Below, piece after piece: positions 47,909 through 64,000 of a stretch of 64,000 bases of DNA. A program made the position numbers and the translations under genes. This DNA is from Flavivirga algicola (GTDB taxonomy: Bacteria > Bacteroidota > Bacteroidia > Flavobacteriales > Flavobacteriaceae). Position 1 is the first letter of the stretch. The number at the start of each line of letters is the position of its first letter. A model generated the notes under the pieces. The model searched no databases and was not told the DNA's origin. It worked only from the letters and a program-made list of their open reading frames with translations. The stretch is from the NCBI RefSeq assembly GCF_012910715.1, contig NZ_JABBHF010000008.1:124001-188000 (forward strand), written 5' to 3'.

Positions 47909-48158
47909 ATAATAGAAGGATATACCATTTTTAGCCAATCAGCCCCAGCTCAGCGTTTGCGGTACCAATTTATTTTTATAGTTCATGATGTTTATTTATA
48001 GAAATATAAATCAATGGCTCAAAACAAATACTTTAAAAATAATGACCACTAAACAATTGAGAATTTGATTGGACATGTCACAGGTTATTTATTCCATAGG
48101 ACTAAATAGAACTAATCTGTGCATAAATTTTAGCATAAACTTAACCCTACATTATAAA

Positions 48159-51100
48159 ATGAAAAATAAAATTTTCCCTATTTGTATGTTGGTATTATTA
48201 GCCACATGCATCCAAGCGTTAGCACAACGCCCATTTTTTAACAAAAACAAAGATATTTTAATAGCTCAATTTGATAGTAAACCAGATCCAGATGATATTC
48301 ATGCACAAGCAGCTTTAGGCTGTATGCTAGCACACCCAGATCTTGCAGGCGTAAACTATTTTGCGGTTGCAGGAGCCGTAGGCATTCAAGGCGGACAATT
48401 TATAGACTCAGACGCACTGTTTAACATGGCGTTTGGTAGCAATAATTGGACAGATGCAGATGCTAACTGGTCGGCATCGGTGACTAGAATAAAAAACAAA
48501 GTGATACCAGTTCTACAGAATGGTGGTAAGGTATGGGTTCAAGAAGCTGGTCAGTCCAATATAACAGCAGATTGGATTGCACAAGTATTACAAACTGTTT
48601 CGGCCAATACTGTGAAGAACAATGTGATTGTTGTTCAACATAGTAATTGGAATGAAGACAAAACAGCATCATCAGACCTTAGCTACGTAAAAAATAAAGC
48701 AAAGTATTTTGCCATTGATGACGGAAATGCTCCTTTTGGTGCTAATTGGGGTGATCGTGGACCATGGGAAACACCAGAATACAGATCTAGAGCAAGCACA
48801 TGGATAGCTCAGGCAAAATCTTCAGTAAACCCAAAAGCAAAACAACTTTGGAGAGAAGCAGATAGAGTTATTGATGCTATGTGGCCAAATGGATACCCCC
48901 ACGACTGGTCTCATATTCATTATGATGGTGTTGATTATTCAGATTGTGCCGAAAACTGGTGGATTTTCAATATTGGAGACAAAGCAAATAGTAACCCGAA
49001 ATTTTGGAGCAGATATGTAATAAATACACCAAACACACCTGGTGATAATGTAACAGGCGTAACCATTTCGCCAACAGCTATAACTATAACTGAAAATCAG
49101 ACATCAACCCTTACGGCAACAGTGCTTCCAGCTACAGCTAGTAACAAAAATGTATCTTGGAGTTCAAGTAACGAAGCAGTAGCAACTGTGAACTCTAGTG
49201 GTGTTGTAACTGGTGTTTCTCAAGGAACGGTAACCATTACGGTAACTACACAACAGGGCAGTTTTGAAGCATCTTCTTCTATAACCGTAACGGCTGGAAA
49301 TGGAGATACTCAAACATTTAGTGCCATTAACGATGCTTATTTACAAGGAAACACACGCTTTAATACTGCCGACCTGAGAGTAGAATCTGGTAATAGGGTT
49401 TCTTACCTTATGTTTGATCTTAGTTCTGTTTCAGGTACTATTACTAGTGCCAAACTTAAGTTATCAACAAGTAATGATCCAGGAAATGGCACTATTAATG
49501 TAAATTTGGGTAATGGCAATGGTTGGACAGAAACCACATTATCTAATACAAATAAGCCTGGTTCTGGTACACAATTAGGTACATTAAATTCAACTTATGC
49601 ACTAAATCAATCGTACACATGGACATTGGATCCAGCACAAATTAGAGGAGGAGATAAATTAAGTTTAATTGTAGTAGTTACAGGTGGCAATGATGTGTCC
49701 TTTGCTTCTGATGAAAATACAAATGCTTCTAAAAAGCCAGTATTAACAATTACTACTGCTAGTAACCCTTCGTCAATACAACCTGCTAGTGTAACTGTAA
49801 ACCCTGCTTCTTTTTCGCTTCAAACAGAACAAACAAGAACTTTAACTGCTGTTGTACTTCCTGATAATGCAACAAACAAAAACGTTATTTGGAGTTCAAG
49901 TAATACAGCAGTAGCGACAGTGAGTAGTAATGGAATTGTAACTGCAGTCGCTAGAGGAAATGCAACAATTACTGCAACAACAGTTGAAGGAGGGTTCATA
50001 GAAACTAGTGCAGTTACTGTTGTTGGTTCTACAAATACAGATTGTGATAAGGTTTTTGAAGAAAAAAATGGGATTGTTGCAGTTGAAGCAGAAGATTTTG
50101 TGGGGCAATTAAAAATTAACGAAAGAGAATGGTTCACTATTGGTACAGGAGCAGCAACACCTACGCCAGACCCAGATGGTAACCATACGGGAGCTGCTAG
50201 TGGAGGGAAGTATATTGAGTTATTACCTGATACACGCGTAACACATAGTGATCCATTAATAAATGGTGTAAATTTTTCTAACACCCCAGGTGTAGCAGGC
50301 GTTATAAATTATAAAGTTAAATTTAATTCTCCTGGAAAATATTATGTTTGGGTACGAGCTTATTCTACTGGATCTGAAGATAACGGAGTCCATGTTGGAA
50401 TTGATGGTACATGGCCCGAGTCTGGAAAAAAAATGCAATGGTGCAGTGGTAAAAATGCTTGGACATGGGAAAGTAAGCAACGTACAAATGCTAACCATTG
50501 TGGCGTAGAAAAACAAATTTTCTTAGATGTACCATCTGCGGGGATACATACTATTTCTTTTTCGATGCGAGAGGATGGTTTTGAAATGGATAAGTTTATT
50601 TTATCAAAAGCATATACAAAACCCTCAGGTAAAGGGGCTGCCCCTGTTGCGGTTACCTGTGGCGACAATGTGGAAGAGACAATTACACTTTCTCCAATTC
50701 ATGATGCTTATCTACAAGGTTCTATGAACTTTAACAACACTATTATCAGAGTGGAATCTGGAAAAAGAGTGGGGTATCTTAAGTATGATTTAAGTAATAT
50801 TTCAGGAACAATAACTAAAGCAGAACTGAAAATGACTTGTAACGGTGATTCTGGAAATGGTAATATTAATATAAACTTAGGTACTTCCAATAACTGGACA
50901 GAAACAACATTGTCTAATGCAAACAAACCAGCTTCGGGTGCGCTTTTAGGTAGTCTTAATAGAACATATAGTATTGGAACAAATTATACCTGGCCTCTTG
51001 ACGAAAGTGCATTTAATGGAGGTGGGGATATAAGTTTGGTTGTTGTTTCTACAGGCGGTAATGACGTGGCTTTTGCTTCTAAAGAAAATAACGTTACTGA

Positions 51101-51416
51101 GCCTCAGCTAGTAATCACCTATACTACCCCTAGTATAAGAAAGGTGTCGGTTTCGAACAAGTTTTCATCAAACCAACCAACTGCTGAGCTTTTTCCTAAT
51201 CCAATCTCAAAAGGAACATTTGAAATTAGTTTAAAAGACAGCAATAGTTCATCGAATATAAACATATATGATAGTACAGGACGACTGATTTATAAAACTG
51301 TCACTGATGAAAAACAGCTGACCCTTGACTCAAGCATTTTTGTATCAAGAGGACTTTATTTTGTTAATATTTTAAATGATAATAATAGTCAGACAATTAA
51401 AGCAATTGTTAAATAA
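48159..51416 (+). CDS. T9SS-secreted multidomain protein: nucleoside-hydrolase-like domain with BIG2, CBM96-like and CBM modules
   Basis: 1085 residues from the ATG at 48159, which begins a clean signal peptide ([20 protein letters not shown]); an in-frame upstream ATG adds 30 unlikely residues. Order: N-terminal domain ~25-290 opening [20 protein letters not shown], reminiscent of the DxDxxxDD site of nucleoside-hydrolase folds; BIG2 (~300-390); CBM96/DNRLRE-like (~395-530); BIG2 (~545-625); a malectin/CBM6-like region (~640-820, [36 protein letters not shown]); second CBM96-like; and a type A T9SS sorting domain ([20 protein letters not shown]). Probably acts on algal material together with the GH16 encoded 40 bp downstream; catalytic activity unproven. 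Confidence 0.75.
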
Positions 51417-51456
51417 AATCATTTAAGAACTGAAACTTCATAAAGTATATGATCAT

Positions 51457-53385
51457 ATGAAAAGTGTAAAATTTATACTAATACTATATGTATTTTTAAT
51501 TGGAGCCACTGCGCTAGCGGATCCGCCACCTGCGCCTCCTGGGTACAAGTGGCAACTAACTGAGCTGTATTCAGATGAATTCAATGGTAATAGCCTCGAT
51601 CTTAACAAATGGAGAAAAAAGCATCCCTTTTGGAACGGCAGGAAGCCAGCTTGGTTTAATCCTGATGCAGTTTCTGTGAGTGATGGGTATATGAAGATTA
51701 CTAATGGTATTCTTAGTAACCCTTTTAATGGATACGACATCTATGGAGGGGCTGTGACTTCAGTGAATGAAAACACCAAGTTTGCTTATTACGAATGCAG
51801 ATTAAAAGCTTCTTCGACCAGAATGTCAACTACATTTTGGCTAGAAAATAGAAAGGCGCCTTTACCAGGTGGTTGTGGAGGAGACACCTATAGCCAAGAA
51901 TTGGATATTGTAGAAACCATTGGAGATGCTACAAACTTGCCTGTTTTTGCGACTCACCAAAAGTCCAATACGCACTTTAGGTGGAGAAATTGCAACGGTG
52001 GTAATGAGCAATTCTTTTCTAAAGGAACCACCACAGGACCTATAAAGGCTATAAACAGTTCTGGTCAAGAGGTAAATCAGCAGAGTGACGAAGGTTTTCA
52101 TACTTATGGTGCATGGTGGCGTGATTCTAAAGAGGTGACTTTTTATCTTGATGACAAAGAAGGTGAAACGGTTCAATTTAGAACCGATAAAACCTCTACA
52201 CCTTTTAATAGGGGTATGTTTATATGTATGGTGACCGAAACATACGATTGGGAACAGAAGCCTACCAATGCCTCATTAACCGATCCTAACAGAAATACAT
52301 CTTACTACGACTGGGTAAGAGTTTGGACACTAGTGCCAGACGATGGTAGTCCAATTGCAGTGACAGGTATTTCGGTTTCTCCAGGGACAGTTTCATTGGA
52401 TGTAAATCAAACAGAGTCTTTAACAGCTGTAGTATCTCCTTTTAATGCTACAAATAAGGCCGTAGTTTGGAATTCAGACAATACATCTGTGGCTACTGTA
52501 GATGCCAACGGTCTCATAACAGCAATTTCTGCTGGTAACACTACAATAACAGCAATTACTGATGAAGGCAGATTTACCGCTACAAGTATTGTTACAGTAA
52601 ATACATCAAATACAACTCAAACAGTTACGCTTTCACCTATTCATGATGCATATACCCAAAATGGTATAAATAAGAACAATACCCTTATACGTGTTGAGAA
52701 TACAGGTAGAGTGAGAATAGGGTATCTTCAGTATGATTTGGGTGGAATCAATGGTGTTATTTCATCGGCGCAATTGAAAATGACTTGTAATTCTGATGCA
52801 GGAAATGCAGCTTTGGCTATTTCAGTAGCACTAGGTAGCGGTAGTAATTGGGCCGAAGGCAATATATCCAGTGCTAATGCACCTTTACCAATAGGAACAC
52901 TGGGTACTAAACAAGGTCCGTTTAGTCCAGGAACTATTTATACCTGGAACTTAAATGCTGGTTTATTGAACGGTGGTGATAAAGCAAGTATAATCATTAC
53001 CGCTTCTGGTAGTAATGATGATGTCGCTTTTGCTGCTAAAGAGCATAATATCACCGAGCCACAGTTGATGATTACTTACAATTCGGCATCAACAAGCAAA
53101 GGGCTTAAAAAACAATCAGATATTTCTACATTAACGTCTTCTGAATTAAAAGTTTATCCTAATCCAATTGTTGGAAGTAGTTTTGTAGTTGATTTGAGTG
53201 GATATAAAAGTGATGTCCAAATCAGTATTTATGATATACATGGAAGACTTTTATACGAGCATGAATCCAGTCCTGAGAAACTGAGATTAAAATCAGATAT
53301 TTTTCAAACAACAGGGCTTTATGTATTTAAAGTTAAAAGCCTTTCTTTAGGTGATACAAAATCACTACTAATAGCTGTAGAGTAA
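51457..53385 (+). CDS. T9SS-secreted GH16 agarase/porphyranase-type hydrolase
   Basis: 642 residues. Signal peptide (KFILILYVFLIGATALA), then a GH16 domain (~25-290): WQLTELYSDEFNGNSLDLNK, YYECRLKASSTRMSTTFWLE and the catalytic stretch SQELDIVETIG with Glu148, Asp150 and Glu153 (ExDxxE). The aromatic-rich cleft and STTFWLE resemble beta-agarases/porphyranases more than laminarinases; kappa-carrageenase is not excluded. A BIG2 domain (~300-385), a CBM96-like domain (~390-545) and a type A T9SS sorting domain (LKVYPNPIVGSSFVVDLSGY) follow. The BIG2 and CBM96 modules are close to those of the upstream protein. Confidence 0.88.
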   Translation: MKSVKFILILYVFLIGATALADPPPAPPGYKWQLTELYSDEFNGNSLDLNKWRKKHPFWNGRKPAWFNPDAVSVSDGYMKITNGILSNPFNGYDIYGGAVTSVNENTKFAYYECRLKASSTRMSTTFWLENRKAPLPGGCGGDTYSQELDIVETIGDATNLPVFATHQKSNTHFRWRNCNGGNEQFFSKGTTTGPIKAINSSGQEVNQQSDEGFHTYGAWWRDSKEVTFYLDDKEGETVQFRTDKTSTPFNRGMFICMVTETYDWEQKPTNASLTDPNRNTSYYDWVRVWTLVPDDGSPIAVTGISVSPGTVSLDVNQTESLTAVVSPFNATNKAVVWNSDNTSVATVDANGLITAISAGNTTITAITDEGRFTATSIVTVNTSNTTQTVTLSPIHDAYTQNGINKNNTLIRVENTGRVRIGYLQYDLGGINGVISSAQLKMTCNSDAGNAALAISVALGSGSNWAEGNISSANAPLPIGTLGTKQGPFSPGTIYTWNLNAGLLNGGDKASIIITASGSNDDVAFAAKEHNITEPQLMITYNSASTSKGLKKQSDISTLTSSELKVYPNPIVGSSFVVDLSGYKSDVQISIYDIHGRLLYEHESSPEKLRLKSDIFQTTGLYVFKVKSLSLGDTKSLLIAVE

Positions 53386-53715: not shown

Positions 53716-54450
53716 ATGATAGAACCTACTTTAAAAGAGCTGGGCAGTCAAACACTAACGTGCATGCAGCTAAGTTCCAAGCAAGCTGAATTAGATATTT
53801 TACATATTGGAGAAATTTCAAATTGCCTCTATGCTTTTTTTGAGACAGAGGATACAACTTTAAACCCTGCAAACCTCGAGGCTTTTGGTAGCAATTTTGA
53901 TATTGTATTAATAAATAGTGATTGCCAAATGCATAGCAATTGCCCCAGTACAGTTAATGATACCGAGCTTAAAGTAACTTATACAAAAACGCCACCATAT
54001 ATTAATAAGAGCTCAGGTTTTATTGATTCTTCACTTATTCCGATACTTTTAAAGTACCTCTTAAAAATAAAAAGCACCTTCCATGAACTAACTGGTGTTG
54101 ATAGTAAAAATAATATAAACAGCTTCTTAAAGCAGGTGGATACTGTTATTGATGAGCATATAGACGACCACTCACTTAATATGGAGCGCCTGAGTTATTT
54201 GCTTGGTATGAGCAGAAGTACGTTTAGCAAACGGGTAAAAGAGTATACAGGACTTAAGCCAACCGAATATGTTAATGAATATAAGTTAGAAAAAAGCAAG
54301 CATTTTTTAATAATTACAAATTGGCAAGTGAGTAGAATATCAGATGTTTTGGGCTTTTCAACACAGCAATACTATTGTCGTTTATTCAAGAAAAAGGAAG
54401 GCATAAGCCCATCTCAATTTCGAATAAATAATAAAAACTCAATAGTGTAA
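53716..54450 (+). CDS. AraC-family transcriptional regulator
   Basis: 244 residues. The C-terminal ~100 residues are an AraC DNA-binding domain with two HTH motifs: MERLSYLLGMSRSTFSKRVK and VSRISDVLGFSTQQYYCRLF, ending KKKEGISPSQFRINN. The N-terminal ~125 residues (IEPTLKELGSQTLTCMQLSS...) have no recognised sensor domain and no membrane segment. It starts a new transcription unit after a strong terminator and is followed by the S8 peptidase gene after 57 bp, in the same direction, so it may control that operon. Regulation of the upstream enzymes is possible too. Confidence 0.85.
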   Translation: MIEPTLKELGSQTLTCMQLSSKQAELDILHIGEISNCLYAFFETEDTTLNPANLEAFGSNFDIVLINSDCQMHSNCPSTVNDTELKVTYTKTPPYINKSSGFIDSSLIPILLKYLLKIKSTFHELTGVDSKNNINSFLKQVDTVIDEHIDDHSLNMERLSYLLGMSRSTFSKRVKEYTGLKPTEYVNEYKLEKSKHFLIITNWQVSRISDVLGFSTQQYYCRLFKKKEGISPSQFRINNKNSIV

Positions 54451-54507: not shown

Positions 54508-55803
54508 ATGAAACCACACCTCATTATAAAGCTAAATAAAATTAATCAAGTGCCCCAATTTAAGTATTGGGAAAACTTAATTGAAAACAAACAAGGGGTG
54601 AGTAAAAATTTTGTGCCTTCAATAGATCGTGTGGTGAGAGGTAAATATAACATTGACTTTTTTGTAAGCAATAATTATCAACCCAAAGAAGCCCAATGGT
54701 CAGAAGTAGAATTAAAGAATGATCTAAATAAGGTTTATAGACTCATATTATTGACCAATAACCCAGATATACCAGAAGGTCTTATAGAAGAAATTAAGAT
54801 TTTACCAGAGGTTGCCTTTGTGAAAAAAGGACAGATAACAACAAGTAATATTCCTGATCAACAGTATTCAGATTCTCAAAGTTTAAGTTCCAAATACATA
54901 AAAAATGCCATTTATTTAAAAGAAGCGCATAAAATAACAATGGGACACCCCGATGTTAAAATTGCTGTTTTAGATACAGGCATAGAAACTGGCCATTCAG
55001 AATTTGATAACCAATTTAGGTTTGATAAAGATTTTGTGAATATTATTGATGGAGCCTCTCAGTTTGTAGGGGATTTTTTAGATATGGACGATGTCCCAGA
55101 TGATCTTGTAGGTCATGGAACTCATGTTGCTGGTATCATAGCATCTAAAGGACGTAAAATGCCTATAGGTGTTTCTCCGAAATGCCAGATCATTCCTGTC
55201 AAAGTTTTAGGGGCATTGAAAGATAAAGGGCAGGTAGTAGGAGCAGGGTTGATAGACGATATCGATGCTGGTATTAAATATGCTGTCGATAAGGGAGCCG
55301 ATGTCATTAATATGAGTTTAGGTATAAAACACCATGGAGGCGGATTGCCCCATGAAGATATTATTGCTTATGCTTTGGATAGTGGTGTTAGTGTGGTAGC
55401 AGCATCTGGTAATGATGGTAAAAAAGATAAATATTATCCAGGAGCACTCAAAGGCGTTATTGCCGTAGGCGCTTCAGATTATATTGGACATATAGCCCCG
55501 TTTTCTACGTTTGGAGGGCATGTTTCAGTAACGGCTCCAGGTGTAAATGTATACAGCACCTTTTTAAATAATGGCTATGCCATGTCTTCTGGTACATCAC
55601 AAGCATCTCCCTTTGTGAGCGGTACCATAGCATTACTTAAATCGTATGCTATAGAGAAAGGTAAAACCATTAAAAATGAAGACATCATTTATATTTTAAA
55701 GCAAACATGCGATAAGTACTCAAATCGATATAAAGATGAAAAATCAGGATTCGGTAGAATTAACATACTCGATGCCTTAAAAATGTTACGATATAATTTA
55801 TAA
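54508..55803 (+). CDS. Cytoplasmic S8 (subtilisin-like) peptidase with ~145-residue N-terminal domain
   Basis: 431 residues without a signal peptide (starts MKPHLIIKLNKINQVPQFKY). The catalytic triad is intact: Asp156 in IAVLDTGIETGH, His203 in VGHGTHVAGI and Ser364 in MSSGTSQASPFVSG, with the oxyanion Asn in AASGNDG. The N-terminal region (residues 1-145) is not a standard inhibitor_I9 propeptide by eye. It heads a dense operon of unrecognised genes spaced 0-50 bp. A peptidase kept inside the cell with co-transcribed partners suggests regulated proteolysis or a protease effector system (inference). Confidence 0.88.
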   Translation: MKPHLIIKLNKINQVPQFKYWENLIENKQGVSKNFVPSIDRVVRGKYNIDFFVSNNYQPKEAQWSEVELKNDLNKVYRLILLTNNPDIPEGLIEEIKILPEVAFVKKGQITTSNIPDQQYSDSQSLSSKYIKNAIYLKEAHKITMGHPDVKIAVLDTGIETGHSEFDNQFRFDKDFVNIIDGASQFVGDFLDMDDVPDDLVGHGTHVAGIIASKGRKMPIGVSPKCQIIPVKVLGALKDKGQVVGAGLIDDIDAGIKYAVDKGADVINMSLGIKHHGGGLPHEDIIAYALDSGVSVVAASGNDGKKDKYYPGALKGVIAVGASDYIGHIAPFSTFGGHVSVTAPGVNVYSTFLNNGYAMSSGTSQASPFVSGTIALLKSYAIEKGKTIKNEDIIYILKQTCDKYSNRYKDEKSGFGRINILDALKMLRYNL

Positions 55804-55813
55804 AAGTAAAATT

Positions 55814-56923
55814 ATGATACAAAACGGAACCCTTAAAAGTATAATAAGTAGTAAGTCCATGGCGCCTACATATTATAAAAAGATTGACAGGACAAGTGAT
55901 TTGCTTCGAACCGCATCTACTTCAACCAAATCTACATTTAGCTTGCTAACATCTAATTATTATATAGCGCCTTCATCGGTGACATTCGATAATATGGTTG
56001 AAGAAGCTATTTATGAATTAAATAATAGGGTTGTAAGAATGGCTCCGCCATCTAAGGTAGATGTTATTACGAAAAGCATTATAGAAAATAGTATTTCATA
56101 CCCTAGTAATATTAAAAACGCTATTAAATCATATCTGGAAAAAGAGTCCTATACAGGCGTATTGGTTAAAGTAGCATCGCAACTTAATGCATCACGTCTG
56201 GATGCTTTTTCGCGGGCTATCCTATCTGAAGAAGGGATATTCTTCTACCTCGCGTACCGTGCTATTGTTGGTCACGAAGTAACCGATGAATCGGGTATTT
56301 CTACAAAGATGTTAGATGCATTAGGAATCGTGAAATCTTATATCAATGTAACACTTGTTAGCAAGGTAATTGCATCAGAAAACCTAAGTGTTACAAGCAA
56401 GGAAAAAACACATTTAGAAAAGTATTTCTCTAATAGAGAGATAAGTTATAGTTCTGGACAACCAGAAATAGCAATAACCGAATACATTGATAAAATTAAA
56501 AGCAGTGGTAGCCTTTATAGATTGGTTGTAGAGTTTATTAACAGTGATAAGGTAAACCTAAAGCGTGATGTTGATAAAGAAGCATTGGTTCATAAAATGG
56601 TTGAATACTTAGTAAGCATAGGTTATGTGCATAAAGAGGATGATGATAGTAATAATGATAGCGGAGGAGAAAATCCAGATAATCATATTGCAGATGACTT
56701 TGATGAAGCTATTAAAGGTATAGGTCCTAAAAATCAAAAGAAGTTTTTCGAAGCAGGAATCCTTCGTTTCTATCAATTGGCAAAACATAACAATGAAAGT
56801 CTTAAAAAGACTTTGAACGAGGAAGGAAGTGCTTTTGATTATACAAATATTATAGAGCAAGCTAAACTTATTTCAGAAAGTAAGTTTGAAGAACTAATCG
56901 AATTACAAAAGAAAATTAAATAA
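55814..56923 (+). CDS. Hypothetical helical protein with C-terminal helix-hairpin-helix
   Basis: 369 residues. Mostly helical with no signal peptide. Near residues 297-345 there is a helix-hairpin-helix-like segment: EAIKGIGPKNQKKFFEAGIL followed by RFYQLAKHN, similar to DUF4332-type units. Such modules bind DNA or act as protein adaptors. A short acidic/Asn-rich linker (EDDDSNNDSGGENPDNHIAD) precedes it. A related hairpin occurs in the Trypco2-like protein encoded downstream, which supports a shared interaction logic. 10 bp after the peptidase stop. Confidence 0.65.
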   Translation: MIQNGTLKSIISSKSMAPTYYKKIDRTSDLLRTASTSTKSTFSLLTSNYYIAPSSVTFDNMVEEAIYELNNRVVRMAPPSKVDVITKSIIENSISYPSNIKNAIKSYLEKESYTGVLVKVASQLNASRLDAFSRAILSEEGIFFYLAYRAIVGHEVTDESGISTKMLDALGIVKSYINVTLVSKVIASENLSVTSKEKTHLEKYFSNREISYSSGQPEIAITEYIDKIKSSGSLYRLVVEFINSDKVNLKRDVDKEALVHKMVEYLVSIGYVHKEDDDSNNDSGGENPDNHIADDFDEAIKGIGPKNQKKFFEAGILRFYQLAKHNNESLKKTLNEEGSAFDYTNIIEQAKLISESKFEELIELQKKIK

Positions 56924-56933
56924 AAATAATATT

Positions 56934-57920
56934 ATGAGTACAGATGCAATTTTATGGCATACGCTGAGCGAGGTTCTTGAAAGCTCTGGTAACGTAACAA
57001 GAGACCCGGTTAAGAATGTGTACTATGATGAAGTCAATGATTTTGATCATGTAAATTCCTTTCAGTTTTTAGATCCTCTTAATTTGCCTGGAGGCACTAT
57101 AAATGTAGTAAATATACAGAACGCAGCATCTTTATATGCTATTATGATCCTAGGTGATGAGATGGGCATATTTAGGGTAGCTGATACCATTTTAAAATAT
57201 GTTACCATGGGTAGAGTTGATGTTGAATCAACTACAACAGCCACCCGTTTGTACAACTATATGCAATTAAGGGACAATAGAACATCTTTTGAAGAGCGTT
57301 CCATGTGGTACAAGCAAGTATTTAATATAGGTAATGGTAATACAGTATCCGATATGGTTGTAAACGAAGGCTTCCTACCACTTTGGGAAACATATATGGG
57401 AGAAGTCATTAAGTATATTGACAAATATGAAGGCGCAGAAGATCCGTTGCGTGTTTCAAAATCGGGAATCCATCAGGTAGTCACAGATTTACAACATAAC
57501 CTATCCAGGGCAGCAGCAGGTATGGTAAAAATATTTGTTCCAGAAATGTATGCACATTTGGAAGATGCCATAGGTATTATTAATGCCGAGGAATTAAGAG
57601 ACCAGCTTGGACATGGTATATCTAGGGACTTATGGAACATTGTAGAAAGTGTTAGTGCAGAAGAGTTTAGCTATTACCCAAATACTTCAGCATTAAGGAC
57701 TATTGCAGACTCAGCAAGAAATATCATTTTAGATATAGCTACATATAACCAGGTAACATTTAGTGAAGATCAATTTCAAGCTATGGTAAAGAATGTAGAA
57801 GCCTTTATTATAGCACAAAACCAATTACAAGGAGGTAGTACTGGAGACTATAACGAAGGAGACGATTATGAGGGTGATTTGGAAGAGCTTCAGGAAGCAG
57901 AAGATAATTGGGATTTCTAA
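56934..57920 (+). CDS. Hypothetical protein, 328 residues, acidic C-terminus
   Basis: I do not recognise this family. It is helix-rich, with no signal peptide, and starts MSTDAILWHTLSEVLESSGN. Internal marks are FQFLDPLNLPGGTINVVNIQ, YAIMILGDEMGIFRVADTIL and HQVVTDLQHNLSRAAAGMVK. It ends in an acidic tail (GDDYEGDLEELQEAEDNWDF). Located 10 bp after the HhH protein gene and 22 bp before the next, so certainly part of the peptidase operon. Confidence 0.6.
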   Translation: MSTDAILWHTLSEVLESSGNVTRDPVKNVYYDEVNDFDHVNSFQFLDPLNLPGGTINVVNIQNAASLYAIMILGDEMGIFRVADTILKYVTMGRVDVESTTTATRLYNYMQLRDNRTSFEERSMWYKQVFNIGNGNTVSDMVVNEGFLPLWETYMGEVIKYIDKYEGAEDPLRVSKSGIHQVVTDLQHNLSRAAAGMVKIFVPEMYAHLEDAIGIINAEELRDQLGHGISRDLWNIVESVSAEEFSYYPNTSALRTIADSARNIILDIATYNQVTFSEDQFQAMVKNVEAFIIAQNQLQGGSTGDYNEGDDYEGDLEELQEAEDNWDF

Positions 57921-57942
57921 TCATTAAACCAGATTGTAAATT

Positions 57943-58956
57943 ATGACAGATCCTAATAAAATAAAAGACCTGGCACGAACCCGTGCTAGAGAGATACTGA
58001 CAAATAATGATACATTCAAGAATATGAATGTAGAGGATCAAAAGAAAATGTATGTCAGTGTTGTCGAAGATCAAATAGAGGCACTTAAAAATAATGGAGT
58101 GCCAGCTTCCAATGGACAATTGTCCAAAGCGAAAAAAGCTTCAGACCTAATTGACGATAAACGCCATGAGAAGGGGTTTGAAGATGGCGTTGATGCCTTT
58201 GAAGATCTTGTGGATTCTGTAGATTTTCCTTTATTCGTAAGGGATTTGATGAAATCTGTATTCGATGCCAATATCGAAGTGATGCAGGCGCAGACCCAAG
58301 ATTATATCACTTTGATGAAGGCCGCAACATCAGAATTGTCAAAATTTATCAAAGCCATAGATGACACTGCAGCATTTGCTTATCTGGCAGAAAATAAGTC
58401 AGATGAGTTCGGAGTTATCATGGAAGAAGATGCAGATGGCAATGAAGTCATGCAACTTGGAAACCCCAATGGAGAAGCTGTTGATATAGGTGATAACCAA
58501 GTTAAAGCTCAAATTATGGATGCCAAGATTAAAATGGCACAGGAACAGCGAGCCATTTTAAGGGAAACCATACTTAAAGGGGTAACAAGATTGGTTGTTG
58601 AAAAAGGGGTTATTGAGGCCGAAGTGAATTTTGAGTTCCAGGGTAAACGTACTGGGGAGAAGAAAGACAAGGCTCTTGAAAAATCGTCATCATCAGAAGG
58701 GACATCGAAACGAGCAGGAACTGGGTTTTTATCTAAATTAGTTGCTAATGCAAATTATGGAAATACAAAAAGTAAGCAAACAACAAAATTTAGTGTGTCT
58801 TCTGCTAAAAGTACTTCAGAAGATGAACTTAAAGCTAAGTTGAGAGGTTTTGTAAAACTTGAGTTTAAGACTGATTATTTTAAGTTAGACAATTTTGCTC
58901 AAATGTATTCGGCACCATCAGAAGACGAAAAACAAGCAGCTTTACCAGCTGGATAA
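57943..58956 (+). CDS. Hypothetical protein, 337 residues, helical front and beta C-terminal part
   Basis: Family not recognised. Residues 1-200 look helical (IKDLARTRAREILTNNDTFK, FVRDLMKSVFDANIEVMQAQ). After about residue 215 come beta-rich segments: VEKGVIEAEVNFEFQGKRTG, a Ser/Lys/Gly-rich linker, and LRGFVKLEFKTDYFKLDNFA. The paired strands resemble DUF2589- or Trypco-like beta units seen again in the 93-residue protein and in the last gene of the window (pattern only). No signal peptide. It ends QAALPAG. Confidence 0.6.
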   Translation: MTDPNKIKDLARTRAREILTNNDTFKNMNVEDQKKMYVSVVEDQIEALKNNGVPASNGQLSKAKKASDLIDDKRHEKGFEDGVDAFEDLVDSVDFPLFVRDLMKSVFDANIEVMQAQTQDYITLMKAATSELSKFIKAIDDTAAFAYLAENKSDEFGVIMEEDADGNEVMQLGNPNGEAVDIGDNQVKAQIMDAKIKMAQEQRAILRETILKGVTRLVVEKGVIEAEVNFEFQGKRTGEKKDKALEKSSSSEGTSKRAGTGFLSKLVANANYGNTKSKQTTKFSVSSAKSTSEDELKAKLRGFVKLEFKTDYFKLDNFAQMYSAPSEDEKQAALPAG

Positions 58957-58974
58957 TATTTATTAAAGAAATCT

Positions 58975-61167
58975 ATGGCTCTGGCATATTTGAAGTATAA
59001 CGGATATGAAGATGGACATTATATATTTTATGCCGATACAGGAACTGCCAAATTTTTTAGATATGTATTGGGTGAAAAAAGCATAAAACTGCGGGTAGGA
59101 GATAGAGATACCATAAAAGTGCTTTCAGGAAATAAAAAAACGTCTAGTTTATATAAAGTAAATGAAACATTACATGGTTTAACGAGTCTTTTTCCACTAA
59201 GGATTCCAGAACATGAAATAACCGATCGTATAAAATATATACAATTATATAGTTTCAATGATGCTAAAAATAAAGCGCCAACTGTTTCAAATATTCTAAG
59301 GTTAATGCTGGTTAAAAGGCATAATTCTGAATTTGCAGGAGTCACTTTGACTTTAGAAACAAATAAAAAATCAATTGCAAAAGATTATAATACCATGCAG
59401 AATATTCAATTAAAAAATAAAGCATTAAGTTATCGTGAACCACCGTTAAGCAAGGTCATGTTTTGGAATGCTCTGGTTGGAGCACTGCCAAATTTATTGC
59501 AACAAGCAGCTCCCATTCTAGGAGGCTTATTAGGAAATTTAAATCTTGGCGGAACTAATAATGGTCAGCAAACTCAACAGTCTGCCGATATCACCAATAA
59601 AATAGTGGAAGTGTTACAGGCTATATCGAATATGAGTCAAAATGTGCAACAGTCTGGAACACAATCATTACAACATTTAAATTCGACCTATAATATAAAA
59701 CCAGAAACACTTTTGGGTTTACAGCCTGTTCTAGAAAAAATTTTAACCCCAGAAGCTATCGAGGCGATTGGTGACGATTCACAAAAGTTATATATGGCAA
59801 TTAAAGATGCTGTTCTATTAACAGAAGGAAGAGAGACATCCTTAAATGCTGTACCTATTTCGAAATCATCTTCAAAAAGCATAAAATCTGATTTTTCTAA
59901 AGCCAAAGTAGCCCCTGCTTTATTAGCTGCATTACCAGCTTTAATGCCCGTGATAGAAAAAGCTTTGAACCCAGAACTTATAGAAGCAGTAGGGAATCAA
60001 CCCGTAAAATTATTTAAGGCCATTGGGGATGCTGTTTTAAAAATGGACGAACAAGAAATAAAACATTTAGAGGCTATTAATCCAGGTGTAGATTCTGCCG
60101 ACGATATAAGTAAACTACTCCAAGGAATGAGTGTTTCCAGATCACTTTATCAAGAGGATATTATTACATACAATTTGGTAAAAGAGCTTAATCTCAATTG
60201 TATTGGTACAAAAACGGTGTTTTTCAAAAATAAGAACCGGGTATTGTATACCAAAAACAGACAGATTTTATTGCCATTTAGCATCACAACTAATAAAGGA
60301 GAGCGTCTCAACAAGAAGATACCGCGCTCAATAATCCAAATTCTTATTAAGGATCCTAAAACATCGAAATTGGTGTTTAGAAAAACCATAAAGTTGGTTG
60401 ATATTGATATCTCCCAAGATATTCAAGAAGCTTTCATTACAACAAAAGAAAGTCAAGGAATTCCTTGTAATACCGAGTATAAATTGGAAATATCTTATAT
60501 CTGGAAATCAAAATCAGGTAAAAATATTGGTGTGCTAAAAAATCAATATATACACTTTATTAAAGATGTTATTTACGATAGGATAGGAGATCGTATTGGA
60601 GATACGATACCATTTAACAATATAAGTGTCCATAGGAAATTTTGGCATAAAATATGGGCTGGAGGCTATTCTAATAGCCCAAGATGGGAAGTTGCTTTCG
60701 ATATTCAATACATTTTAGCTTTAAGTACCAAGGAATCTGGTATTGCAAAAATGGAAACCAGAACATTGAAAATATCCGATAATATTGAAGAAAGCACACA
60801 ACATCCTAAGCGCCGTCGTATTCATTCGCGACTTAAAAGTGGTTTTGAACTAAGCTTTAAGGCCATAAATAGCATACTGCAACTATTAAATCAAGAACAA
60901 TTAGACGGAGAACTCCTTGGTGCATTAAAACATAGTGATGCAAAGAAATCATTTTCATTATCGGCAAGATACCGAGCCGAGATGAAAGGTCGTGAAGGAG
61001 ATACATCAACACTTTGGTGCTATCCAGAGTTTGTGCTTCGCAAATTACATATGTACAAAGTTGAAATTACCAATGACTATGGACAAGTTATTTCTATGGC
61101 TCCTCAAGAGTATATTATTGCTATGCCCGAGGCCATTCATTTTATAGGAACTAAATCTGAACGTTAA
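58975..61167 (+). CDS. Large hypothetical protein, 730 residues, with internal duplication
   Basis: Largest product of the cassette; no family recognised and no signal peptide. Residues 1-~130 are beta-rich (FYADTGTAKFFRYVLGEKSI). A hydrophobic Gly/Ala/Leu stretch follows near 168-192 (ALPNLLQQAAPILGGLLGNL). Next is a repeated unit: residues 249-~276 (LQPVLEKILTPEAIEAIGDD) and 323-~350 (LMPVIEKALNPELIEAVGNQ), 74 residues apart, each ending KLxxAIxDAVL. Residues ~430-540 look like an Ig-like sandwich (RQILLPFSITTNKGERLNKK). The hydrophobic part could insert into a membrane or pack into an assembly. Confidence 0.6.
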   Translation: MALAYLKYNGYEDGHYIFYADTGTAKFFRYVLGEKSIKLRVGDRDTIKVLSGNKKTSSLYKVNETLHGLTSLFPLRIPEHEITDRIKYIQLYSFNDAKNKAPTVSNILRLMLVKRHNSEFAGVTLTLETNKKSIAKDYNTMQNIQLKNKALSYREPPLSKVMFWNALVGALPNLLQQAAPILGGLLGNLNLGGTNNGQQTQQSADITNKIVEVLQAISNMSQNVQQSGTQSLQHLNSTYNIKPETLLGLQPVLEKILTPEAIEAIGDDSQKLYMAIKDAVLLTEGRETSLNAVPISKSSSKSIKSDFSKAKVAPALLAALPALMPVIEKALNPELIEAVGNQPVKLFKAIGDAVLKMDEQEIKHLEAINPGVDSADDISKLLQGMSVSRSLYQEDIITYNLVKELNLNCIGTKTVFFKNKNRVLYTKNRQILLPFSITTNKGERLNKKIPRSIIQILIKDPKTSKLVFRKTIKLVDIDISQDIQEAFITTKESQGIPCNTEYKLEISYIWKSKSGKNIGVLKNQYIHFIKDVIYDRIGDRIGDTIPFNNISVHRKFWHKIWAGGYSNSPRWEVAFDIQYILALSTKESGIAKMETRTLKISDNIEESTQHPKRRRIHSRLKSGFELSFKAINSILQLLNQEQLDGELLGALKHSDAKKSFSLSARYRAEMKGREGDTSTLWCYPEFVLRKLHMYKVEITNDYGQVISMAPQEYIIAMPEAIHFIGTKSER

Positions 61168-61169
61168 TT

Positions 61170-61319
61170 ATGGAAAATAAAATACCTGATTTATCAAAAA
61201 TGGCTTCCACAACTTTGGAAATGGATCCCATATTGATAGATGGACAAAAGATACTTTTTGACAAAAAAGTAACGCTAATGCCAGTAACATTAGAAGAAAA
61301 AGAAAATGGTTATGAGTGA
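61170..61319 (+). CDS. 49-residue microprotein in the peptidase operon
   Basis: A short frame, MENKIPDLSKMASTTLEMDP... ending EEKENGYE, starts 2 bp after the stop of the 730-residue protein gene. Its stop lies inside the next gene: the TGA at 61317-61319 overlaps the ATG at 61312. Such close packing on both sides argues that it is translated. Sequence shows no known motif. Confidence 0.5.
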   Translation: MENKIPDLSKMASTTLEMDPILIDGQKILFDKKVTLMPVTLEEKENGYE

Positions 61320-61590
61320 TTATATAGATGAAGATTTCATTGAGTTTAGTGGGTTCTTAGAGGAATTCACATCTATAGATCAATACATGGAGGCTAATTT
61401 TGAGCAACAAACTTTGGCGATGCAAGTTGAAAAAATTAGGACAGAAACCCCATGTCAATTAAATGTGGAAGTTGATGATAGTGGAACGGTTAAAATTGGG
61501 AGCATACCACCAATGTATTATGTAGAGACCTCTTTTATGCCTGTTTTTCATAACATAAAAATAAATTTCGAACTCGTAGAAAATAAATAA
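61312..61590 (+). CDS. Hypothetical 92-residue protein with beta C-terminal half
   Basis: The ATG at 61312 (MSDYIDEDFIEFSGFLEEFT) or the one at 61306 two codons earlier. An acidic helical first half is followed by a strand-rich second half: CQLNVEVDDSGTVKIGSIPP and FHNIKINFELVENK. The end strands resemble those in the 337-residue protein and in Trypco-type beta units. No family is certain. The stop codon touches the next start codon (1591-type zero gap), so expression is coupled. Confidence 0.55.
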   Translation: MSDYIDEDFIEFSGFLEEFTSIDQYMEANFEQQTLAMQVEKIRTETPCQLNVEVDDSGTVKIGSIPPMYYVETSFMPVFHNIKINFELVENK

Positions 61591-62328
61591 ATGGCAACAG
61601 CAAACAGGTCTTGGAATCTTGAGTCGTTTTTAGATTCATTAATTGTTGAGCTTGATAAAGCAAGAGAAACACTTGCTATCAAAGCGATTAACAAGCCTTT
61701 GACCTATGCTGTTAAAGATGTTAATTTAGAAATGCAACTGTTCCCAAGTTTCGATGGTGATAATGTTAGCTTTATAACAGCTCAACCAGGACAGGAAGGG
61801 GCTTCTAAAATAGCCATTCAATTGGGGTCAATAACAGACCAACAGATTAGAAAAACGACAAAAGAGCCAACAACAACGCAAGATGTATCAATAGATCTCA
61901 TCGATGAGATAGATACAGATACCAAGAATACACTTCGTAAGATAGGCGTGACATCTGTGAATGACTTGGATAAAATACAAAAGAAAAATGTCGATTTATT
62001 AAAGGCAAGTAACAAAAAAGTAGATTATGGTAAGTTGGCAAACCTTCTAAATAAAGCACGTCGTACAGAAAACCCACCTAGGGTTGGTCGTGTAAACTTT
62101 AATATAAGCAGAAGTGCTTCAACAATCGATGTAGAAGGTGATAACTTAATATTTGATAAGAAGTATAAGCCAGTTGCTGTTTTTAATGGTGAAATGGTAG
62201 ATTTTACATCTGCCACCAAAAGCAACCTTAAGATTCAAATCGATTCAGATAAGGTTAAAGATAAAGATAATGAGCTTATCGTGATATCAGACCCATTTAC
62301 ACTGTTTAAAATGAAGTTAGATAATTAA
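61591..62328 (+). CDS. Trypco2-like + helix-hairpin-helix + beta-sandwich protein
   Basis: 245 residues in three parts. Residues 5-85 (LESFLDSLIVELDKARETLA, then YAVKDVNLEMQLFPSFDGDN and ASKIAIQLGSIT) follow the helix then beta-meander pattern of the trypsin-co-occurring domain Trypco2. Residues ~107-155 resemble a helix-hairpin-helix unit (DTKNTLRKIGVTSVNDLDKI). Residues ~165-245 look like a TIG/IPT-type sandwich (VGRVNFNISRSASTIDVEGD). Trypco2 domains occur next to trypsin-like peptidases in bacterial conflict systems; here the peptidase is a subtilase. The call is by eye without a profile search. Confidence 0.55.
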   Translation: MATANRSWNLESFLDSLIVELDKARETLAIKAINKPLTYAVKDVNLEMQLFPSFDGDNVSFITAQPGQEGASKIAIQLGSITDQQIRKTTKEPTTTQDVSIDLIDEIDTDTKNTLRKIGVTSVNDLDKIQKKNVDLLKASNKKVDYGKLANLLNKARRTENPPRVGRVNFNISRSASTIDVEGDNLIFDKKYKPVAVFNGEMVDFTSATKSNLKIQIDSDKVKDKDNELIVISDPFTLFKMKLDN

Positions 62329-62343
62329 AATTAATAATAAGCG

Positions 62344-63438
62344 ATGAGAAAAAGATCATATAAGAGTTTTGTAATGAATTTTTCGGTTAATAAGGCTAAG
62401 AAAAAACATAGGTCGGTATCTAAAAATGATAACCGAGTTGTCCTAGAACCAAAAATGGAGTCTAAGAAAAAAGCGACTATTGTTGTATCACATTATGATG
62501 AAAACCAGTCTATATCGTTAAGCCTGCCTGAAAGTCTATGTTCCGATCATTCACCCAATGATGAAACCTATGGAAACCAAAATAATAATGGAACATCCAT
62601 ATCGCAGCAACCCAAACGATATGACAATATTGAAGATGCGATTATAGTAAGCGGTTCACAATCGGTTTCCAGCAACACAGAACCATATAGTGACGCGAAT
62701 AATTATTTTATAGCAGCGCATGATGAATTGGAAGATGATGAAGATAAAAATAAGGCATTTTTGTTAGCTAAATCTGTAGACGTAAGTCCGCAAGAAACAC
62801 AACAGGAGCAAGAAGTAAAGGGTGAAAATAATCCGCAAGAGGCACAAAACACAGAAAGTCAAGTTGAAGAAGTACAAAACCCGATTGAATTAGATAGAGA
62901 AGCCGATAAGAAATTTGAAGAAGATTTGCGGGCCATTTTAAGTCAAAAGACTACCAATGACAAGAAAAGAGAACAAAACGACCCTGCCGAGGCATCTAAG
63001 AACAAAGATAATGGGATTGTTGATGAATCGGATGAAGCATTTAAAAAAGAACTAAAAAACAGACATGCCATTTTTGACCAAATAGCACAAAGTATGAAAA
63101 TGGCAGATGCTTATGATTTTGGAGCCATAGCAATGAATAAAAAACTAGATAGCTTAGAAGAAGAAACGAATGAAGATTTTACCCAGAAAATTGAAGAAGT
63201 TTTAAATAGAGAAGAAGAAAAAGAGAGACCTTCATATTCAGGGAAAAGAGAAGATGATAACAAGATACTTACCGAAGATTTCTTAGAAGACATAAATAAA
63301 TTAAATGAACTTTCTTCCGAACAATCCGAAAATTCACAAGACTTTGCAGAAGATGCTATTATTTTAGAAGACACCACAGAACCTAAAAAAGAAGAAAGTA
63401 TAAACGAGCCCAAATCTGATAGTTCGAATCAGCTCTAA
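62344..63438 (+). CDS. Acidic, low-complexity hypothetical protein, 364 residues
   Basis: A basic first ~35 residues (MRKRSYKSFVMNFSVNKAKK) are followed by a long Glu/Asp/Gln/Asn-rich, probably disordered chain with coiled-coil-like segments (EEEKERPSYSGKREDDNKIL, ELSSEQSENSQDFAEDAIIL). No enzyme motif. It could be a linker, scaffold or protease substrate in the cassette (inference). Also part of the operon, 15 bp after the Trypco2-like gene. Confidence 0.55.
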   Translation: MRKRSYKSFVMNFSVNKAKKKHRSVSKNDNRVVLEPKMESKKKATIVVSHYDENQSISLSLPESLCSDHSPNDETYGNQNNNGTSISQQPKRYDNIEDAIIVSGSQSVSSNTEPYSDANNYFIAAHDELEDDEDKNKAFLLAKSVDVSPQETQQEQEVKGENNPQEAQNTESQVEEVQNPIELDREADKKFEEDLRAILSQKTTNDKKREQNDPAEASKNKDNGIVDESDEAFKKELKNRHAIFDQIAQSMKMADAYDFGAIAMNKKLDSLEEETNEDFTQKIEEVLNREEEKERPSYSGKREDDNKILTEDFLEDINKLNELSSEQSENSQDFAEDAIILEDTTEPKKEESINEPKSDSSNQL

Positions 63439-63488
63439 TTTTTAAATAAAAAGAATAATATACGTAATAACCTAATAAAATAAATATC

Positions 63489-64000
63489 ATGAATAATAAT
63501 AGATTTTTATTTCTGGAAGAAGAACTGAAGGGATTTTCAGAACATCCTGACAATAAGTTAATACAAAAGAAAAAACTTTCCACTCAAAAGAACCCGGCAG
63601 CAGGTGTTGCTGTAGCTGGTGCGGTTATTGCTGGCGCTGGTGTGGGATGGCAAATTTTTGAGTTTGCCTGGGCACAAACAGAGGGAGATATTAAAGTGAA
63701 ATTAGCTAGAATGGAAGGGGCTAAACTTCCTAGCGACGATAAATCTTATCAAAACAAAGGCGTTTGGAAAAAGAAAACAGTAAGAATTTATGAAAAATAT
63801 GGAAGCCGAATAGGTGATGAGATTTCGGCAAAATTCGATTTATCTTTTAAGTACAATGATTATGGTGTGGGCTATATAGACATTGATCATGTAGAATCCA
63901 ATGATGCAATTGCTTTTGGATTAAATGTGGAAGCTAAACTTATGGCAGACCCTAATAATTATACATCTAATAATGGCGGGCAATCGATGTCCATGATAGA
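63489..64000 (+). CDS. Hypothetical protein with Gly/Ala-rich segment (3' end beyond window)
   Basis: The frame from the ATG at 63489 is open to the end of the window (170 codons seen). It starts MNNNRFLFLEEELKGFSEHP. A small-residue hydrophobic stretch, AAGVAVAGAVIAGAGVGWQI (residues ~38-57), could be a membrane helix. After it come beta-like strands (RIGDEISAKFDLSFKYNDYG, AFGLNVEAKLM) similar in style to those in the other beta proteins of the cassette. No family recognised. The operon therefore continues past the window. Confidence 0.55.
   Translation, partial: MNNNRFLFLEEELKGFSEHPDNKLIQKKKLSTQKNPAAGVAVAGAVIAGAGVGWQIFEFAWAQTEGDIKVKLARMEGAKLPSDDKSYQNKGVWKKKTVRIYEKYGSRIGDEISAKFDLSFKYNDYGVGYIDIDHVESNDAIAFGLNVEAKLMADPNNYTSNNGGQSMSMI

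Follow-up and report, generated by a model that had tools for sequence, protein, structure and literature searches.

A conserved gene cluster headed by an S8 subtilase appears to encode an undescribed machine carrying cell-wall-cutting and other toxic enzymes

The T10SS releases Tc toxins by means of a holin and an endolysin. In conflict systems, Trypco domains are described as working with trypsin-like peptidases, either as their adaptors or as their partners (PMC7159879 and PMC10907252). For the Hedgehog-type peptidases of bacteria (bacHh), the function of the peptidase activity is stated as unknown (PMC6027127). The operon of Flavivirga algicola described here lies at the end of the window, the whole stretch of 64,000 nucleotides that was analyzed (contig NZ_JABBHF010000008.1, positions 124,001 to 188,000). 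It consists of an AraC-type regulator, an S8 subtilase, nine unassigned proteins, a GH24 lysozyme, and a peptidase combining VanY with a Hedgehog-N-type domain (Table 1); the lysozyme gene and, behind it, the gene of the VanY–HH_signal protein lie past the window end on the contig. About twelve genes, whose order is preserved even between very distant bacteria, appear to build an undescribed protein machine loaded with enzymes that cut cell walls or are otherwise toxic; one of these enzymes is closely related to Hedgehog, the signaling protein of animals.

Table 1. Features of the operon, in window coordinates
Feature	Position	Strand	Basis or remark
AraC-type regulator	53716..54450	+	PF00165 1.1e-19
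S8 subtilase, core gene	54508..55803	+	PF00082 1e-44
p369, 369-aa protein, p328-related, weak HhH-like tail	55814..56923	+	hhalign
p328, helical core protein	56934..57920	+	profile matches and AF2
p337, core protein, candidate β-hairpin ring/channel subunit	57943..58956	+	profile, hairpin signature, AF2
p730, core protein, layout A only	58975..61167	+	profile and alignments
p49, 49-aa conserved protein	61170..61319	+	translation and relatives
p94, core protein	61306..61590	+	alignment, profile, hhalign
p245, core protein	61591..62328	+	N-terminal module marginally Trypco2-like, weak HhH
p364, acidic adaptor-like protein with IFD module	62344..63438	+	sequence comparison
IFD module, 40 aa, inside p364	63064..63183	+	single copy in window genome
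p201, N-terminal docking motif	63489..64000	+	gene cut by the window, end 94 bp beyond; full gene L004:9490-10095

The genes run on the plus strand from position 54508, as the initial annotation had it, with successive gaps of 10, 10, 22, 18, 2, −14, 0, 15, and 50 bp. The genes it described are real; the 138 bp that separate the genes of 730 and 94 aa contain the 49-aa gene, which was overlooked. By eye, no signal peptides are evident in the cluster proteins and no holin was noticed in the cluster. The operon is a discrete insert, as judged by an empty site in the same-genus genome G019; the AraC gene lies within the insert that this genome lacks, and AraC homologues precede the S8 gene in five other loci (L015, L016, L017, L019, and L023). 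The best terminal match of the insert ends is 23 bp at 87%, and promoter-like matches (48 versus 43 expected) are uninformative.

One scan of genomes with p245 as the query, together with two plasmid records, yielded 55 further loci. The carriers belong to Bacteroidota, cyanobacteria, proteobacteria, and the actinobacterial genus Cellulomonas, a spread that comes from one narrow scan. Two fixed layouts occur: both feature S8, p328, p337, p94, and p245, and the core of layout A adds p730 and p49. Order and strand agree without contradiction between the window and the 55 other loci, although some of the latter are truncated where the contig or the fetched segment ends, and this recurrence is judged to be more than chance. 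A lack of co-occurrence in other genomes, which the initial annotation had named as speaking against its proposal, was not seen. Its picture of a co-inherited, undescribed, conflict-type system headed by S8 and adjoined by AraC is borne out by the 55 other loci, the five with AraC homologues, and the position of AraC inside the insert. Among the loci, L004 is the window locus, and L010, L011, and L012 stem from the same genomes as L016, L015, and L025. No description of the gene set was found in open-licence PMC papers, and the available part of PMC12419801 holds nothing relevant to it.

The S8 subtilase is present in 55 of the 59 loci searched and belongs to peptidase family S8 by an Asp/His/Ser triad in a subtilase domain. 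The triad Asp156/His203/Ser364, already reported as intact, does not vary across the 53 aligned rows (a set that includes two duplicates); in PADLOC, the protein matches only the subtilase and IetS models. For the other core proteins tested, nothing convincing turned up in Pfam, PHROGs, NCBIfam, PADLOC, or the PDB, the Pfam scan of p328, p730, and p94 covering the window members only and p49 standing outside all family-library searches. The p328 profile matches 58 of the 59 loci, and the AF2 model is all helical (pLDDT 76.6, pTM 0.70). The protein p369 is related to the p328 family (hhalign 100%) and is fused to p328 in locus L012. Its residues 284–353 resemble the end of an L21-type NCBIfam model—a tail that we take to be HhH-like—with an E value of 5.8e-4, which does not reach the cut-off. 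The protein p730 occurs in 37 of the 59 loci; in 23 of 36 sequences, its KD19 exceeds 1.6, a hydrophobic stretch that would allow a membrane-bound role. BLAST places the small p49 in a linked group of 24 proteins, a few of which are parts of fusions with larger cyanobacterial proteins. The p94 profile matches 44 of the 59 loci, and the p94 proteins of layouts A and B are linked by hhalign at 87%.

The protein p337 occurs in 59 of 59 loci, and layout-B loci can have as many as four copies. Its alignment comprises 54 sequences, drawn from 108 listed ones and the window, and leaves out the last copy of layout B. All 54 rows feature a loop rich in S/T/G/N between two amphipathic strands, and composition and strand alternation fit a membrane hairpin throughout, membrane insertion being a prediction. 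The AF2 model has a pLDDT of 71.1 and a low pTM of 0.41. Compared by Foldseek and VIA-align, the models of p328 and p337 gave weak matches only, with no fold match for p337. Weak Pfam matches of single rows (Focal_AT 9/54, DUF6683 9/54, and GTP_EFTU 2/54) were treated as noise. The protein may form a β-hairpin channel.

The protein p245 likewise occurs in 59 of 59 loci, 53 of which were fetched with p245 as the query. Its C terminus is TIG-like in six of 46 homologues, PADLOC returned Cas11e at E 0.024, and RNA polymerase alpha chains are matched at E 0.26–0.42, a weak HhH. The helix–hairpin–helix units claimed earlier for two proteins can be appreciated in both p369 and p245, each time weakly. 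A Trypco2-like front had also been noted for p245: one of the 46 homologues matches marginally (E 0.0095), and the window protein does not. In the window cluster, Pfam finds no trypsin-like peptidase neighbor, S8 standing in its place, and no MoxR/vWA or STAND NTPase family. With so marginal a Trypco2 match and no MoxR/STAND-type NTPase among the cluster proteins, the proposal of a Trypco system variant is not upheld, and the Trypco link is weak.

Two further elements are candidate adaptors. Of the 34 layout-A loci, 28 contain the IFD module of p364 and two more show it weakly, whereas it was not found in layout B; L032, L034, L035, and L036 carry two copies. In the five genomes searched whole, it has one match in the window genome, one in each of four other carriers, and none elsewhere. 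The p201 domain is common to both layouts and was found in 28 loci at E below 1e-3 (9/34 in layout A, 19/22 in layout B), where in layout B it sits inside head proteins. A moderately hydrophobic Ala/Gly stretch of p201 (KD19 1.64) was looked at as a possible holin.

The genes downstream of the core are variable. Their recurring domains are Amidase_2, GH24, GH108, VanY, M23, Tae4, C70, EndoU, and Ntox11, with lysozymes, amidases, and C70 proteases as recurring classes; in layout A, peptidoglycan hydrolases are the commonest recognized payload domains. A downstream gene is defined as a plus-strand gene of at least 100 aa after p245 with gaps under 450 bp, so the set keeps plain neighbors such as comM (three rows) and arginase (two rows); in L013 and L042, no gene after p245 reaches that length. 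The N-terminal, amphipathic-looking motif NRLxxLExEL, first spotted by eye in the same data, is present in 34 of 102 downstream genes versus one of 397 others (0/199 core genes and 1/198 other genes), counts that leave out layout-B loci (L014 among them) and the duplicates L010, L011, and L012. The lone control gene, L034:14302, is probably a payload too, set off by a wider gap. By locus, the motif is present in 22 and absent from ten of the 32 layout-A loci having a downstream gene. The strict form is missing from two thirds of the downstream genes, and p364, the lysozyme, and the VanY–Hh protein of the Flavivirga operon do not carry it. A matrix built from Bacteroidota recovers 17 of 38 genes elsewhere versus one of 210 controls at an AUC of only 0.75, three near-identical Calothrix loci being among the matches and the 10-residue pattern that selected its training segments having been shaped after all clades were seen. 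In relatives, part of the downstream genes show variable toxin domains behind a common leader, as in polymorphic toxin systems. Judged from sequence, a fixed core is encoded together with variable genes, many of which bear a common N-terminal motif. The recurring payload domains and the motif favor a payload-carrying effector system over the intracellular proteolytic assembly proposed earlier, taken alone.

The VanY–Hh protein features an HH_signal domain (PF01085, 4.7e-52) with the zinc motifs H-X6-D and H-X-H, present as HYEGRGAD and HVH, which places it among the bacHh. Its C-terminal domain is ~53% identical (76/144) to the Sonic hedgehog N-domain. Among 149 genomes of the family, the Hedgehog domain occurs in only three, all with the operon; across the Bacteroidota searched (149 family and 395 phylum genomes and the carriers), it was found in four genomes, each time inside the cluster.

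With moderate confidence, we favor a phylum-spanning payload system made of a core complex, docked effectors, subtilase maturation, a p337 channel, and delivery to a target cell; assembly and delivery are the steps that we infer. The core proteins would assemble in the cytoplasm into a sheath-less, apparently ATPase-free complex, onto which payloads would dock through the N-terminal motif; p364 (by its IFD module) and the p201 domain would act as adaptors in this. Maturation or triggering of the complex would fall to the dedicated subtilase. Oligomerization of p337 would turn its paired amphipathic strands and S/T/G-rich loop into a channel, and the payloads, after release from the producer, would reach the target cell through or together with it. 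In the window genome, these would be the GH24 lysozyme and the VanY–Hedgehog-type peptidase, aimed at peptidoglycan. This reading draws on the consistent order and strand, the recurring payload domains, the motif counts, the IFD module, the p201 domain in both layouts, the p337 hairpin signature, the searches for sheath proteins, and the empty site. Counting against it, no exit route is evident and no immunity genes were recognized; p337 has a low pTM and no fold match, p328 matches weakly, the strict motif is missing from many downstream genes, the IFD module and the p201 domain are unevenly spread over the layouts, and the hydrophobic stretch of p730 may point to a membrane. If true, sequence searches relate this machine for delivery or conflict to none of the known secretion systems, and its short loading signal allows payload discovery to be put to the test. 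A bolder version, held only tentatively, is a new class of delivery machine: self-assembling, sheath-less, and ATP-independent, with rings of p337 and p328, arming by its own subtilase, and interchangeable effectors loaded via a short N-terminal helix, the Hedgehog N-domain peptidase being among the Bacteroidota payloads. The ancestor of the animal morphogen may therefore have been such an effector.

Alternatively, the toxins could be kept inactive on the complex until an invader is sensed, whereupon S8 frees them and the producer dies. Such intracellular suicide or abortive infection is unlikely. In its favor, the site of action of EndoU and Ntox11 domains would be intracellular, no immunity genes were recognized by eye or in Pfam scans, and proteases are at hand in S8 and in the Trypsin_2 domain of 12 of 19 layout-B head proteins; the marginal Trypco2 likeness of p245 would fit as well, given the part described for Trypco domains in conflict systems (PMC7159879 and PMC10907252). 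Against it, the commonest recognized payload domains of layout A are peptidoglycan hydrolases, which do no harm in the cytoplasm as long as no pore forms; Pfam finds no sensor NTPase in the window cluster, and PADLOC yields nothing beyond the models named above for S8 and p245.

That the enzymes open or remodel the producer's own wall, for instance to release large Tc-like proteins encoded nearby, is improbable. GH24 and M15-type enzymes resemble an endolysin set, and large minus-strand genes that look Tc/Rhs-like by eye start beyond comM, ~2 kb after the cluster's final gene; yet the two closest relatives show other genes within the ~1.6 kb read beyond comM, nuclease and protease domains occur among relatives' payloads, and the core is far bigger than a lysis cassette. 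Descent from a phage tail or a contractile injection system, whether as a remnant or as a derivative, might be suggested by a multi-protein core with a phage-type lysozyme and by the listing of Ntox11 with the PVC pathway (PMC3482391). It is highly improbable, since PHROGs (ten window proteins, none of the core proteins except S8 matching at E below 0.01; one of 54 p337 homologues matching one unknown family), 50,697 phage records (no match of p328, p337, or p245), viral contigs (no match of the p245 and p337 profiles), and the window's own genome (no match of VipB or Phage_sheath_1) all speak against it. No tail families were found in the window cluster by Pfam and PHROGs, and eight of 25 carrier genomes match neither a T6SS nor a phage-type sheath.

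The payload system favored here resembles the T6SS, PVC/eCIS cargo, and polymorphic toxins by its variable enzymatic payloads (Tae4, EndoU, Ntox11, and amidases) and a shared N-terminal element. It differs in that no sheath, tube, spike, ATPase, or immunity genes were recognized in the window cluster and that the core families are unrelated by sequence searches. With the protease-activated pore-forming or binary toxins of the aerolysin type, it has in common an S/T-rich loop between long amphipathic strands and an S8-type activating protease; in contrast, no sequence or fold match was found, several paralogous subunits occur, and the payloads are many and seemingly peptide-docked. The T10SS likewise features muramidase and peptidase genes near Tc-like genes, whereas here a large undescribed core is present and relatives' payloads go beyond lysis enzymes. 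With the Trypco/VMAP-MoxR systems (PMC7159879), the operon shares a protease and a small adaptor-like protein per operon and the marginal Trypco2 match of p245; it differs by S8 in the core instead of trypsin and by cell-wall hydrolases as payload, and no MoxR, vWA, or STAND was found in the window cluster. The bacHh or Hh-DD-peptidases (PMC6027127) feature the same HH_signal domain and zinc motifs as the payload; here, the domain follows VanY and belongs to a multi-gene system, and the cluster supplies a genomic context for bacterial Hedgehog-type peptidases.

The operon of the window genome begins with an AraC gene and the S8 subtilase gene and runs past the window end, where the 3' order on the same contig is p201, a GH24 lysozyme, a VanY and HH_signal protein, and then comM (cluster proteins are named by their length in aa). 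The intergenic gaps are -14 to 50 bp across S8–p201 and 5 and 88 bp thereafter. The S8-headed plus-strand operon of the initial annotation is borne out, but a 49-aa gene had been overlooked; of its domain calls, the Trypco2 likeness of p245 is marginal and HhH is weak, so the observation as a whole is confirmed in part. Several proteins of the p49 group are fused to larger cyanobacterial proteins. Of the window core proteins other than S8 and p49, none is convincingly matched in Pfam, PHROGs, NCBIfam, or PADLOC.

Located genes of the operon in the window genome
Feature	Position	Strand	Remark
AraC gene	start 53716	+	first gene of the operon
S8 subtilase	start 54508	+	operon continues past the window end
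p49 gene, 49 aa	61170-61319	+	in a BLAST-linked group of 24 proteins
GH24 lysozyme	after p201, beyond the window on the same contig	+	PF00959, 2e-30
434-aa protein	last cluster gene, beyond the window	+	VanY (3.2e-13) and HH_signal (4.7e-52), Pfam

A p245 scan of 84,980 species genomes yielded 53 loci, assigned by record title to Bacteroidota, Cyanobacteriota, alpha-, beta-, and gammaproteobacteria, Desulfobulbaceae, Candidatus Eisenbacteria, and Actinomycetota (Cellulomonas). Among 59 loci searched—including three duplicates and the window—profiles match S8 in 55, p328 in 58, p337 in 59, p730 in 37, p94 in 44, and p245 in 59, the last count not being independent since p245 was the scan query. 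Gene order and strand are consistent among loci. Layout A, with 33 loci plus the window, reads S8-p328-p337-p730-p94-p245; no S8 gene was seen in L018, L034, L036, and L037, each of which ends too soon or is truncated by the fetched flank. Layout B, with 22 loci of which several are truncated at contig ends, reads p337-p94-p245-S8-p328-p337-p337-p328-p337, where p94 is mostly assigned by position and hhalign (87%) and not by the p94 profile. The layouts are linked by profile comparison, as judged by hhalign of p337 copies (99.7–100%), p328 (98.9–99.9%), and p245 (99.5%). A 350-aa family, p350B (L054:14116-15168 and relatives), is restricted to layout B; its last 60 residues match the C-terminal end of p328, first copy, at 99.1% in hhalign. 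On plasmids, p337 and p245 have tblastn matches in four records, three of Tolypothrix/Microchaete and one of Burkholderia, and an S8 gene adjoins in both records fetched. The Tolypothrix cluster (L013) is flanked by two annotated IS701 transposase copies (L013:1-877 and L013:20823-22133), which share a protein accession and lie on opposite strands—an arrangement that recalls a composite transposon.

The genes after p245 are variable in layout A. For 102 downstream genes, plain neighbors and close relatives counted in, the Pfam matches listed (25 of 40 families) include lysozyme (8), VanY (8), C70 (5), Amidase_2 (5), HH_signal (4), Ntox11 (3), DUF4347 (3), and GH108 (2); Tae4, M23, and EndoU occur in single proteins each. 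The head proteins of layout B (n = 19) carry C70 (16), Amidase_2 (14), Trypsin_2 (12), C92 (10), and CHAP (3). Judged from sequence, these unlike payload enzymes are tied together by an N-terminal motif, the IFD module, and the p201 domain. The motif, N[RKSQ][LFI]xx[LI], is present in 34/102 downstream genes versus 0/199 core and 1/198 other genes. It comes in 26 distinct 10-mers, and 22 of 32 layout-A loci having a downstream gene carry it. Because it was first spotted by eye, it was retested with a matrix from 16 Bacteroidota 10-mers: on cyanobacterial and proteobacterial loci, 17/38 downstream genes versus 1/210 controls lie above the level, at an overall AUC of 0.75, with three near-identical Calothrix loci among the matches and a training pattern shaped after viewing all clades. 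The N-terminus of p245 (NRSWNLESFLDSL, window 61591-61660) itself resembles this docking motif, and p245 homologues rank among the top-scoring controls; the segment is possibly a self-occupying or competing helix.

Profile matches to the 40-residue IFD module are confined to genes of the downstream kind and cover 28 of 34 layout-A loci, with two further weak ones; none was obtained in L013, L027, L033, L042, or anywhere in layout B. The module is single-copy in the window genome and in each of four other carrier genomes, and L032, L034, L035, and L036 hold two such proteins each. The p201 domain occurs in 28 loci at E <1e-3. In the nine of layout A, it stands alone in Bacteroidota and follows C70 or shares its protein elsewhere (L030 and L037); in the other 19, all of layout B, its place is at or near the end of head proteins. 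Cyanobacterial clusters end in proteins with a hydrophobic C-terminal tail (L028:15651-16610, L031:15686-16720, and L046:15741-16628), a possible membrane anchor.

The C-terminal domain of the last payload matches Sonic hedgehog in the PDB (5.6e-43, 76/144 residues identical). HH_signal occurs in 3/149 family genomes—exactly the cluster carriers, each time within the cluster—and in 1/395 phylum-sample genomes, the window's own. Among 37 genomes of other loci, it was found in Lacinutrix (L023), again within the cluster, and in none of the other 36; it is thus one of many payloads. Passages of PMC6027127 state the function of bacterial Hedgehog-type domains as unknown and report membrane-bound bacHh proteins outside Bacteroidota, which are not placed in the present system.

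In a congeneric genome (G019), the GH16 gene is followed directly by comM and the cluster is absent; together with the entire cluster, the AraC gene thus makes up one insert or one loss. In the window genome, these flanks are ∼12.9 kb apart (window 53389 to window-equivalent 66332, by blastn edges). To the left (window 48069-53385), two proteins of secreted appearance carry Big_2, CBM96, and type IX secretion tails, and the second of them also bears a GH16 domain. Downstream of the window, large Tc/SpvB/Rhs-like genes occupy the minus strand (L004:14119-20000 and L005:2-10756; ORF lists, by eye), and the two closest relatives carry different genes beyond comM (∼1.6 kb read there). p328 is present in 3/149 family genomes, the window's own included, and in 2/395 of the phylum sample; the p337 profile matches 2/296 genomes, one being a broken remnant. 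Identities to two related carriers are 94% and 92% for comM, 92% and 91% for p328, 87% for S8, and 49 to 91% for the others, and shared descent at the site with loss elsewhere thus fits better than very recent transfer. A degenerate p337 interrupted by stops (L069, G167:C19:6718-6966), from a different family within the phylum, is consistent with loss. In Lacinutrix neustonica (L023:2730-9729), S8 is in three pieces and p328 and p730 are also split, by either decay or assembly errors.

All 54 p337 rows examined feature an insert of 34 to 75 residues rich in S/T/G/N (0.45 versus 0.21 elsewhere), flanked by two strands in which hydrophobicity alternates in the manner of amphipathic β-strands. 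The AF2 model places two 19-residue strands at the insert, at low global confidence (pTM 0.41). The strand pair and insert, along with the four layout-B paralogues, suggest that p337 may form an oligomeric channel or tube. p328 is helical (AF2, pTM 0.70), and a fold search gave no clear match. In a hydropathy scan (threshold 1.6 per stretch, not a membrane predictor), p94 and p245 lack hydrophobic stretches, which occur in p337 (4/116), p730 (23/36), p328 (13/41), and S8 (11/55); those in p730, p328, and S8 leave room for membrane contact of the core proteins. The window genome has no match to a T6SS or phage-type sheath, and of 25 carrier genomes, seven match VipB, 13 Phage_sheath_1 (one below cut-off), and eight neither, which makes a sheath machine of these families unlikely as the general carrier. 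Since, in addition, Pfam finds no NTPase in the window cluster and p337 has the traits described, the favored reading is a payload carrier: the core proteins would self-assemble in the cytoplasm, and the system's own subtilase would arm the assembly.

An intracellular abortive-infection system, with toxins held inactive on the complex and freed by the S8 protease at the cost of the producer, is improbable and stays alive because some payloads would act within cells and no immunity genes were recognized by eye or in Pfam scans. Searches of open-licence PMC papers gave no description of the gene set, and the core proteins besides S8 are unnamed in the libraries searched; we rate the conserved system as new and infer its function as a payload carrier. 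The proposal of a subtilase-based Trypco variant is not supported: according to passages of PMC7159879 and PMC10907252, Trypco partners trypsin-like peptidases in systems that depend on NTP, a pattern that the present system, with its marginal p245–Trypco2 relation, does not match.
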